From Gemmatimonadaceae bacterium (GTDB lineage Bacteria > Gemmatimonadota > Gemmatimonadetes > Gemmatimonadales > Gemmatimonadaceae), in the NCBI GenBank assembly GCA_020852815.1, contig JADZAN010000002.1, positions 1 to 64,000 of the forward strand: a DNA stretch of 64,000 nucleotides. The letters are read 5' to 3'. Under the pieces are notes generated by a model. That model had not been told where the DNA came from, did not search any database, and was given only the letters and a program-made list of their open reading frames with translations. The position numbers and the translations under genes were made by a program. Below, piece by piece: positions 47,339 to 50,551 of this stretch. Each line of letters opens with the position of its first letter. Position 1 is the stretch's first letter.

Positions 47339-48112
47339 GTGGCCCACCTGCGTTTCATCGATAATAGATTTCGCCTCGATCGTCCCGCAGAACAGGCTGC
47401 ACCAGAACCCCAGCGTCGCGTGTCCCTCCAGGATCTGTACGCCCACTACGCCCAGGTTCTGCGCCCCATCCTGCGCATTGCCCCGGTTTTCGGCGGTGTG
47501 GCGATGCTGGCGTGGCGCGTTCGCGAGACGCGTGTCCCCGTCTCCGCCAAGGCGATCGTGATCCCGCCGCTGGCAATGAGTTCCGGCTTCGTGATCTTCG
47601 CGATGCCGATGGCGCGCGTCCCCTGGACATGGGCACTCGGCGCCTTCCTGCTGGGGTGTTTCGTCCTGTCGTATCCGCTCACGCGTTCCACGCGCCTCGA
47701 GCCGCGCGACGGGGTGATCTACATGCAGCGCTCGCGCGCGTTCCTGGCGATCCTGCTGGCGCTGCTCGCGGTGCGTCTCCTGTTGCACGACTACATTGGG
47801 CACCTCATCTCGCCGTTGCAGACGGCGTCGCTCTTCTTCCTTCTCGCGTTTGGGATGATTGCGCGGTGGCGCTGGGTGATGTATGGGCAGTTCCGTGCGT
47901 TGACGGAGACGCAGGTCGTGGCGCCGCGCCGCGACGATGGCGCGGGCGTGCGCCGCGGGGCGATGGCGATGCGGGCGATGACGATCCTCACGATATTGGG
48001 GATCCTGGTGGCGTTGCTGATTCCGGTAATCGCCAGCCGCCGCGCGCGCGCGACGCCGCAGGCGCCGGCAGGGCCGGCAGGGCCGTCGGCGTCCGTGTCG
48101 CGCGACGCCTGA
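47339..48112 (+). CDS. CcdC-like (DUF1453) membrane protein
   Basis: Inner-membrane protein of up to 257 residues. The core ILRIAPVFGGVAMLAWRVRE, VPVSAKAIVIPPLAMSSGFV, DGVIYMQRSRAFLAILLALL and SLFFLLAFGMIARWRWVMY follows the CcdC/DUF1453 pattern. CcdC is encoded beside cytochrome c maturation genes in Bacillus, but its exact role is unsettled. There are five predicted helices plus an extra C-terminal one. The start is uncertain: a GTG at 47339 or another at 47420. It is close to a cytochrome c gene, which fits a cytochrome-related job, but also precedes the peptidase/ATP-grasp pair by only 67 bp. Confidence 0.65.
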   Translation: MAHLRFIDNRFRLDRPAEQAAPEPQRRVSLQDLYAHYAQVLRPILRIAPVFGGVAMLAWRVRETRVPVSAKAIVIPPLAMSSGFVIFAMPMARVPWTWALGAFLLGCFVLSYPLTRSTRLEPRDGVIYMQRSRAFLAILLALLAVRLLLHDYIGHLISPLQTASLFFLLAFGMIARWRWVMYGQFRALTETQVVAPRRDDGAGVRRGAMAMRAMTILTILGILVALLIPVIASRRARATPQAPAGPAGPSASVSRDA

Positions 48113-48179
48113 CGCGGCGAGCGCGCGATCGACAGTTTACGTCCCCTCACGCACGATCGACCCGACCGAGACTCGCGCC

Positions 48180-49316
48180 TTGCCGCCCGTCGCTCGCCAA
48201 CGTTCGCGCTCCCCGCGCCCTGCGCGCTCCCCGCGCTCTGCGCCCCCTGCGCCCGCCCCGCGCGTCGCGCGCGGCAAGAGCATCGCCACCGCCAGCCGCA
48301 ACGGCGCCGATCCCTGGGCCTCGCTCGCGCGCGACGAGCTCCTGGAGATGCGCATTCGCGATCTCGGCGTGCGCCTGGAGGGGACGTGGATCGAGGAGTG
48401 CATCGAGGCACTGTACGAGGAACTGGCCGAGCGCGGGCTGTCGCTGCGCCCGCACTGCTGGCTGTCGAGCGAGTGGTTCTCGCCGGAGGGGGTGACGGGG
48501 ATCGGCATCCCGTTCTACCTGGCGCATCCGCGGCTGATGCGTCTCGAGCGCACGATGATGCTGGAGGTGGAGGGGGGGACGCGCCCCGAGTGCATGCGCA
48601 TCCTTCGCCACGAGACTGGGCACGCGCTGCAGCACGCCTTCGACCTGCATCGCCGCAAGCGGTGGCGCGAGCTATTCGGGCCGTCGACGACTCCCTATCC
48701 CGAGTCCTACCGCCCCAATCCCGCCAGCCGCAAGTATGTGCAGCACCTGCGCCTGTACTACGCGCAGTCGCACCCCGACGAGGACTTCGCCGAGACGTTC
48801 GCTGTGTGGATGGGGCCGCGCTCGGCGTGGCAGCGGAGGTACCAGGGGTGGGGGGCACTGCAGAAGCTGCACTACGTGGACGAGCTGATGGAGGAGCTGC
48901 GCGGCGGGCGGCCGCGCCGACGCGCGCGCGAGGTGGTCGAGCCGCTGTCCAGTCTGACGATGACGCTGCGCGAGTATTACGAGGGAAAGCGTGCGCAATA
49001 CACGGTGAGCTATCCCACCACGTATGATCGCGAGTTGCTCAAGGTCTTCTCCAACGATCCCAAGCATGCCCGGCGCGAGCTGGCTTCGCACTTCATCCAG
49101 CGGCACCGTGTCGAGATACGTCGCACCGTGGCGCGCTGGACGGGGGAATACGAGTTCACGCTCGACCAGTTGCTGCGCGACATGATCGGGCGTTGCCGCG
49201 AACTCAAGCTGCGGGTGACCGGGCAACAGCGGCCGGTCCTGCTCGACTTTGCCGGGATGCTGGCGGTGCGCACGGTGCACTTCCTGTATTCGCGGCGCGT
49301 CTCGATCGCGATGTGA
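48180..49316 (+). CDS. Putative zinc metallopeptidase (Peptidase_Mx-like)
   Basis: Protein of up to 378 residues with a gluzincin-style zinc site: HETGH (144-148) in MRILRHETGHALQHAFDLHR, then SHPDEDFAETFAVWMGPRSA about 60 residues on, giving a plausible third ligand. The N-terminal domain includes LSSEWFSPEGVTGIGIPFYL. The C-terminal 110 residues are helical and may bind the substrate or partner. There is no signal peptide, so it is cytoplasmic. The start is uncertain: a TTG at 48180 or an ATG at 48348; the first 35 residues are Arg/Pro/Ala-rich. Only 7 bp separate it from an ATP-grasp gene, implying joint function, perhaps making and cutting an amide bond. Confidence 0.7.
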   Translation: MPPVARQRSRSPRPARSPRSAPPAPAPRVARGKSIATASRNGADPWASLARDELLEMRIRDLGVRLEGTWIEECIEALYEELAERGLSLRPHCWLSSEWFSPEGVTGIGIPFYLAHPRLMRLERTMMLEVEGGTRPECMRILRHETGHALQHAFDLHRRKRWRELFGPSTTPYPESYRPNPASRKYVQHLRLYYAQSHPDEDFAETFAVWMGPRSAWQRRYQGWGALQKLHYVDELMEELRGGRPRRRAREVVEPLSSLTMTLREYYEGKRAQYTVSYPTTYDRELLKVFSNDPKHARRELASHFIQRHRVEIRRTVARWTGEYEFTLDQLLRDMIGRCRELKLRVTGQQRPVLLDFAGMLAVRTVHFLYSRRVSIAM

Positions 49317-49323
49317 GAATGCC

Positions 49324-50352
49324 ATGAGCCGGACAACACGTCGCAAGCTGCGCATCCTGGTGCTGGTCCAGCCAACGCTGATTCCGCCGGAATCGGACGC
49401 CGGGTTGAGCGAGCGCGAACGCTATGAGATCAAGACCGAGTACGACGTCACCAGCACGCTGCGCCGCCATGGGCATGATGTGCGCGTGCTGGGCGTGCGC
49501 GACGAGCTTCTCCCCATCCGCCAGGCCGTGGAGGAGTGGAAGCCGCACGTTGTCTTCAATCTCCTGGAAGACTTCTTCGGGCTGCGCGAGTTCGATCATC
49601 ACGTGGTGAGCTACCTCGAACTGCTGCGCGTTCCATACACCGGGTGCAACCCGCGCGGCCTCGTGCTCGCGCGCGACAAGGCGCTGAGCAAGAAGATCCT
49701 GGCCTACCACCGCATCCCGGTCCCGCACTTCGACGTGGTGCGGCGCGGGCGCACGGCCCGCCGGTCGCGCCATCTCAAGTTCCCGCTCATCGTGAAGTCG
49801 CTCACCGAGGAAGGGTCGGTGGGAATCGCCCAGGCGTCGGTGGTGGAGAACGACGAGGACCTGAGGGCGCGCGTGGAGTTCATCCATCGCACGACGGAGA
49901 GCGACGCCATTGTCGAGGAGTTCATCGATGGGCGCGAGATCTACATGGGGATAGTCGGCAACCACCGCCTGGAGGTCTTTCCCCCGTGGGAGCTGACCTT
50001 CGAGAACGTGGCGCCGGGAACGCGTCGCATTGCCACCTCGCACTACAAGCACGACCCCAATGCGCAGGAGAAGCGCGGCATCAACCAGGGGCCGGCGCAG
50101 CTGACGGAGGCGGTGCGCAATCGCCTCGTGTCCGCGGCGCGTCGCATCTACAAGCTCCTCTCGCTCGACGGCTACGCGCGCCTGGACTTCCGCCTGCGCG
50201 AGGATGGAACGCCGTTCTTCCTCGAGGCGAACCCCAATCCCGAGATCGCCGAGAGCGAGGAGTTCGCCTCGTCGGCGCTAGAGGCGGGGTATGCCTATCC
50301 CGACCTGGTGCAGCGCATCGTGACGCTCGGCGTTCGGCGCGGGTCGCTGTAG
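49324..50352 (+). CDS. ATP-grasp ligase, D-Ala-D-Ala ligase-like
   Basis: Predicted carboxylate-amine ligase of 342 residues. The N-terminal Rossmann-like part has LRRHGHDVRVLGVRDELLPI and VVFNLLEDFFGLREFDHHVV. The central VPYTGCNPRGLVLARDKALS then KKILAYHRIPVPHF and FPLIVKSLTEEGSVGIAQAS are the Ddl-type nucleotide-binding blocks. IVEEFIDGREIYMGIVG and YARLDFRLREDGTPFFLEAN then PNPEIA carry the metal-binding Asp/Glu/Asn set. It lacks the Ddl substrate serine/tyrosine pattern I would expect for peptidoglycan synthesis, so another amide product is likely. It is tightly linked to the metallopeptidase gene. Confidence 0.8.
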   Translation: MSRTTRRKLRILVLVQPTLIPPESDAGLSERERYEIKTEYDVTSTLRRHGHDVRVLGVRDELLPIRQAVEEWKPHVVFNLLEDFFGLREFDHHVVSYLELLRVPYTGCNPRGLVLARDKALSKKILAYHRIPVPHFDVVRRGRTARRSRHLKFPLIVKSLTEEGSVGIAQASVVENDEDLRARVEFIHRTTESDAIVEEFIDGREIYMGIVGNHRLEVFPPWELTFENVAPGTRRIATSHYKHDPNAQEKRGINQGPAQLTEAVRNRLVSAARRIYKLLSLDGYARLDFRLREDGTPFFLEANPNPEIAESEEFASSALEAGYAYPDLVQRIVTLGVRRGSL

Positions 50353-50376
50353 GTCGCCGTAGGTCGCTGTAGGTCG
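50343..50376. repeat. 10-bp tandem repeat across a stop codon
   Basis: Three head-to-tail units of GTCGCYGTAG (50343, 50353, 50363) and a partial fourth. The first contains the stop codon of the ATP-grasp gene, so slippage here could extend or shift the C-terminus. Confidence 0.75.
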
Positions 50377-50551
50377 ATCCAGCCCGCGGCGTTTGGGCGG
50401 CACCTGGCGGCGTGGCGGTGGGCGCTGCAGGCAGTGCTGTGGCGCGCGCCGCGTCGGGCGCGGGACGAGCTGCGGCGCGGTTGCCCCTTCCAGCACCCGC
50501 GGTCGGCGGTGCAATGTGGAGGCGACCGATCCCTCACCCGCCGAGAGTCCG

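Follow-up and report, generated by a model that had tools for sequence, protein, structure and literature searches.

A zinc metallopeptidase and a Ddl-like ATP-grasp ligase kept together across bacterial phyla: a candidate two-gene module for making and trimming amides

The window, that is the whole stretch of 64,000 nucleotides of a Gemmatimonadaceae contig analysed here, carries three consecutive genes on the same strand (Table 1). Open reading frames and Pfam matches recover the arrangement described in the first-pass annotation: a CcdC-like gene whose stop codon lies 67 bp ahead of the reading frame of a HETGH zinc peptidase, followed, 7 bp after the peptidase stop, by the reading frame of a Ddl-like ATP-grasp ligase. 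The peptidase starts with a TTG codon at 48180, its first in-frame ATG being found at 48348; this TTG is favoured because a segment common to the homologues of the protein, W..L....LL..R, is located before the ATG, from which the peptidase residues are numbered in what follows. Inspection by eye makes no signal peptide or membrane segment evident in this protein, and a cytoplasmic location would be reasonable. Just past the ligase stop codon, positions 50353-50384 of the window contain short imperfect repeats of 'gtaggtcgctgtaggtcg'.

Table 1. Genes and conserved motifs of the locus, in positions of the window
Feature	Position	Strand	Match or conservation
CcdC-like ORF	47339-48112	+	PF07301/DUF1453, 145.8 bits, cut-off 24.6 (Pfam)
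Zinc metallopeptidase gene, 378 aa from TTG	48180..49316	+	PF15887 Peptidase_Mx, 34.7 bits, cut-off 27
HETGH predicted zinc-binding/catalytic motif (H88, E89, H92)	48609..48623	+	H, E, H invariant in 113/113 pairs
Peptidase YAQSHPDEDFAE with Y138, E145, E149	48759..48794	+	Y138, E145, D146, E149 invariant in 113/113
Ddl-like ATP-grasp ligase gene, 342 aa	49324..50352	+	PF07478 Dala_Dala_lig_C, 105.6 bits, cut-off 24
Ligase K242-H243, position of Ddl Lys-Tyr	50047..50052	+	K 113/113; H 64, W 48, F 1
Ligase R286...D288...E301-x-N303, predicted ATP-grasp catalytic Arg and Mg ligands	50179..50232	+	R, D, N 113/113; E 110, D 3
Ligase E313, acidic, predicted acceptor-pocket position where Ddl has ...SL...	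50260..50262	+	E or D 112/113

The peptidase passes the Pfam gathering cut-off of the Peptidase_Mx family, and it is built of a core of this family extended by a mostly helical C-terminal region. Its AlphaFold model (pLDDT 88.6, pTM 0.72) has its closest solved counterparts in a putative zinc metallopeptidase of Bacteroides (4l7a) and in metalloprotease domains of the M34/PPEP type, all of them weak matches (E 0.14 or higher). The active site is complete: the HExxH zinc motif and the downstream tyrosine and glutamate are present, and H88, E89, H92, Y138, E145, D146 and E149 do not vary in the 113 pairs compared. The third zinc ligand is expected to be E145, seven residues past Y138, a spacing which we take to fit gluzincins of the M34/PPEP type.

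The predicted model of the ligase (pLDDT 90.4, pTM 0.89) finds its best solved folds among Ddl enzymes (E 3e-26, TM 0.75-0.77). Its ATP-grasp catalytic and magnesium residues are conserved (K119, K158, R286, D288, E/D301, N303), and K119, K158, S165, E198, E205, K242, R286, D288 and N303 are invariant in all 113 pairs. The RimK profile PF08443 is also matched (27.2 bits for a cut-off of 21), but PF07478 is matched far more strongly and the nearest folds remain those of Ddl. That the enzyme would make amides may soundly be inferred from this fold taken together with its intact catalytic residues.

The ligase is nevertheless, as judged from its sequence, not a standard Ddl, a finding which would, for the first-pass annotation, have told against the proposed system. 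It misses the NCBIfam cut-offs for Ddl by a wide margin (132.4 against 243 for NF002378, 117 against 245.65 for TIGR01205), while a separate Ddl of the same genome, on contig C9, passes the same models with 303.6 and 281.1 bits. The N-terminal domain of Ddl, PF01820, is matched at 49.1 bits in the genome's own Ddl and finds no match in the window ligase up to E = 10. In the aligned acceptor pocket, TETSLIPQ in the genome's own Ddl corresponds to AESEEFAS in the window ligase: the Ser-Leu of the D-Ala2 pocket is replaced throughout the family, with an acidic residue, E or D, at the position of E313 in 112 of the 113 sequences, and the Lys-Tyr pair of Ddl (KY in the genome's own enzyme) becomes Lys-His or Lys-Trp. 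Because of these two replacements the acceptor is probably not D-Ala, an argument drawn from alignment with Ddl, not from a ligand-bound structure. The acidic pocket suggests, more generally, that the acceptor would not be a free D-amino acid, and that the N-terminus of a peptide, a side-chain amine or some other amine is likelier.

Further Ddl-like enzymes are found in this phylum. In the genome under study, one Ddl-like ATP-grasp carries a SET domain (41.3 bits) fused at its C-terminal end and adjoins a second Ddl-like ligase (L154:6060-7493, contig C2, about 119,060-120,490). Another genome (G048:C44, L152:4819-8598) has two Ddl-like ATP-grasp genes in tandem and, after them, genes for a GNAT acetyltransferase and for a protein of the lysine-2,3-aminomutase family, a set that is possibly a cluster for a beta-amino-acid peptide or an osmolyte; such tandem Ddl-like pairs recur across many Gemmatimonadota. 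Divergent paralogues of the window ligase also occur unpaired (G042:C1:1189964 and G058:C5:31905; loci L148 and L149), and both genomes have the peptidase elsewhere.

We can now consider how the two genes travel. A scan for the peptidase over 85,000 species genomes returned more than 594 matching stretches, of which the best 80 loci were analysed. These already span at least six phyla, being distributed over Gemmatimonadota, Alpha- and Gammaproteobacteria, Myxococcota, Planctomycetota, Acidobacteriota (Pyrinomonadaceae) and Eisenbacteria, and in all 77 of these best 80 with enough contig beyond the peptidase, the ligase lies directly downstream on the same strand. At the sensitivity of a sequence search, a homologue of the peptidase is present in 36 of 60 relatives from the same order, and a ligase homologue adjoins it at every readable locus. 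Peptidase_Mx matches in these 60 genomes number 42, and 41 of them adjoin a ligase, one such ligase being cut by the end of its contig; the sole exception is G058, the ligases of which sit elsewhere in the genome.

The same conclusion is reached from presence and absence. In 121 genomes sampled evenly from the same phylum, 46 have both genes and 72 have neither, two have a ligase of this clade only and one the peptidase only (Fisher p about 9e-30). In the single genome with the peptidase only (G037) the ligase is cut by a contig end, so that no peptidase stands without a ligase in the same genome, while two ligases stand alone (G084 and G070). There is no remnant of a peptidase near these two, and their genera otherwise carry the pair, which makes loss of the peptidase likely. 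The pairing is thus far beyond chance, and the peptidase and the ligase form the conserved system that had been proposed from this one locus; the isolated occurrence of homologues, which the first-pass annotation had held to be fatal to the idea, is restricted, among the 121 genomes, to those two lone ligases.

The commonest spacing between the two genes is a 4-bp overlap, seen in 51 of 75 measured pairs, which suggests translational coupling. Patristic distances in the two families go together (r = 0.93 over 86 loci, the maximum in 999 permutations being 0.20), and the trees of the peptidase and the ligase at 113 loci have 56 of 110 splits in common. Gemmatimonadota also hold versions of the pair that are about 37% identical, as well as pairs in convergent orientation (L055-L058) and pairs in the reversed order, ligase then peptidase (L141-L146, L150, L156, L157), the latter with a highly divergent peptidase that bears N-terminal zinc ribbons. 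That the pairing has been kept despite changes of order and orientation and despite so divergent a peptidase argues strongly that the two share a function. Across phyla the two genes have been passed on, and have moved, as one; their arrangement suits coupled translation and their catalytic residues are complete. We regard the existence of a functional peptidase–ligase module as practically certain.

Nothing else accompanies the module with comparable fidelity. The CcdC-like gene, in which the first-pass annotation saw a possible transporter or anchor, has no homologue at any of 110 related loci, and in both relatives of the same genus its homologue and the pair sit on separate contigs; it was rejected as a component. 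At the loci of the pair, conservation across phyla extends to no third gene. Nor does any short precursor ORF come back from phylum to phylum in the 800-bp flanks of 85 loci, where the sole recurring stretches are the ends of the peptidase and ligase genes, so that the precursor peptide looked for downstream of the ligase has to be abandoned as well. The system first imagined therefore survives in two of its three genes, the peptidase and the ligase, and loses the CcdC-like gene and the precursor. With neither third gene nor precursor conserved, the target would be either encoded elsewhere or a common metabolite.

Several other associations were considered. A role in defence was rejected: none of the three proteins has a match in PADLOC, and the pair was not found on plasmids or in phages. 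In L141-L143 the reversed pair is immediately preceded by the homospermidine biosynthesis gene speY, a class V aminotransferase, a LOG-type protein and an MFS transporter. A link to polyamines was rejected too, as almost all genomes of the order have genes of the speY family, which are elsewhere unlinked to the pair, so that this linkage was judged to be local synteny. Genes for peptidases of the TldD/TldE type are found within about 5 kb of the pair in G025, G007, G016, G035, G004 and G029, in at least three arrangements, and near the pair also at L065 and L073; this proximity looks higher than a rough expectation from gene density, but is confined to Gemmatimonadota, and we take it as no more than a lead.

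What could such a module do? The ATP-grasp ligase would turn a carboxylate into the activated acyl phosphate and join it to an amine, and the gluzincin peptidase, probably in complex with the ligase, would cut or trim the same linkage, the outcome being a cycle of writing and erasing, or of making and trimming, acting upon some peptide or protein of the cell whose gene lies in another part of the genome. Tight coupling, lack of a local substrate gene and broad chromosomal distribution make this the simplest model, and we put forward a self-contained two-gene amide module with a distant target as a serious proposal, to which we would give slightly less than an even chance. We are similarly guarded, with slightly less inclination to believe than to doubt, on the order of events that it implies, in which the peptidase would act on the product of the ligase or on the modified target, as opposed to generating the substrate or turning over a small molecule. 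Ligases alone, but no peptidase alone, are what a peptidase dependent on the ligase product would lead one to expect, and this leans towards a peptidase acting after the ligase, even if the asymmetry comes from two genomes only, both from genera that otherwise have the pair, where secondary loss is possible. A more ambitious version of the proposal, which we advance only tentatively, would be a widespread, hitherto undescribed and reversible post-translational amide modification, with a Ddl-derived ligase writing an amino acid or another group onto a conserved protein or peptide of the cell, from which a gluzincin peptidase dedicated to the task would erase it.

The main rival explanation inverts this order. 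The peptidase would first cut a cellular protein or peptide, and the exposed terminus would then be extended or capped by the ligase; the same gene pairing would arise if the peptidase freed the ligase substrate. That the peptidase gene comes first at most loci, with a 4-bp overlap, would fit such a sequence of events, as would the lack of a precursor encoded near the pair and the fact that the same order has been proposed for two branches of ATP-grasp enzymes (PMC8939145). Yet the ligase gene comes first in the reversed version, and the two genomes that keep a ligase with no peptidase are awkward for a ligase that needs a cut. We consider this route unlikely, while keeping it in mind. We are somewhat more sceptical of a third possibility, that the ligase would make a dipeptide or an amide metabolite which the peptidase would hydrolyse or salvage, in the manner of VanA and the zinc dipeptidase VanX. 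A ligase accompanied by a zinc peptidase is indeed the logic of van clusters, the Ddl fold typically yields small dipeptides, and there is no conserved gene for a protein target near the pair. Against this, the D-Ala acceptor pocket has been replaced, genes for biosynthesis, transport or regulation are not conserved in the vicinity, and the nearest folds of the peptidase, weak as these M34/PPEP-type matches are, belong to endopeptidases, not to dipeptidases. An accessory Ddl making D-Ala-D-Ala for the cell wall, with the peptidase hydrolysing wall precursors, could be argued from the clear Ddl fold and the Dala_Dala_lig_C domain, but the scores far below those of the genome's own Ddl, the absent N-terminal domain, the lost D-Ala2 residues and the absence of conserved cell-wall genes near the pair make it very improbable. 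Finally, a three-gene system anchored or served by the CcdC-like membrane protein has in its favour that, in this one genome, the CcdC-like gene lies 67 bp from the pair and on the same strand, and is refuted by the comparison of neighbourhoods, which leaves it next to no credit.

The proposal of a writer and its eraser deserves attention for what it would bring. A pair of enzymes, each with its active site complete, has stayed together in at least six phyla, in culturable bacteria such as Bradyrhizobium and Neorhodopirellula too, yet its ligase could readily pass for a superfluous D-Ala-D-Ala ligase. Should the two be a writer and an eraser, they would add a new modification of proteins or peptides to what is, in bacteria, a very short list. 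What extra Ddl-like enzymes do becomes a question that can be put directly to the test by knocking out two genes. No description of the pair was found in the literature searched, from which the classic amidoligase survey (doi 10.1039/b917682a) fell outside, nor was any characterised system of the same composition, as the first-pass annotation had supposed.

It remains to place the pair among known systems. With the Ddl/VanA family of D-Ala-D-Ala (D-Lac, D-Ser) ligases, the window ligase shares its fold, its ATP and magnesium residues and Dala_Dala_lig_C, but it falls far below all Ddl and Van model cut-offs, has an acidic residue at the D-Ala2 position and Lys-His or Lys-Trp for Lys-Tyr, and has no match to the Ddl N-terminal domain. 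A cluster of the Van type (VanH-VanA-VanX) would further have a VanH dehydrogenase as neighbour, which is absent here, where no third gene is conserved. The peptidase core resembles, weakly, that of the putative zinc metallopeptidase of Bacteroides caccae (4l7a), from which it differs by its long helical C-terminal extension and its ligase partner. The Anbu operon, of unknown function, also couples an ATP-grasp enzyme genetically to a putative peptidase, but it has four genes, ATP-grasp, alpha-E, transglutaminase-like and Anbu (PMC6376114), and includes an Ntn-hydrolase, while the loci of the pair have no conserved third gene.

Graspetide systems have the gene of a short precursor peptide nearby, unlike the pair. 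Closer to it in genomic terms, and indeed its nearest genomic analogue, are branches 7 and 8 of the graspetide-related ATP-grasps, associated with peptidases at loci where no precursor was found, the peptidases being proposed to supply peptides that are cut, then ligated (PMC8939145). These branches combine graspetide-type ATP-grasps with peptidases from several unrelated families, whereas the pair is a fixed two-gene unit of one Ddl-like ligase family and one peptidase family. The nearest working analogue is to be sought in the reversible C-terminal polyglutamylation of ribosomal protein RpsF, to which RimK adds glutamate and from which RimB removes it (rimABK; PMC11957791). There, too, an ATP-grasp ligase and a protease are encoded together, the protease removes the groups added by the ligase, as it would in the pair, and the history of the genes is not congruent with that of their hosts. 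The components differ: RimB is a retropepsin-like aspartic protease and not an HExxH zinc peptidase, RimK is a RimK-type and not a Ddl-like ligase, and rimABK includes a phosphodiesterase of the RimA type that has no conserved counterpart at the loci of the pair. The best reading would be that of a counterpart to RimK/RimB assembled from unrelated components.
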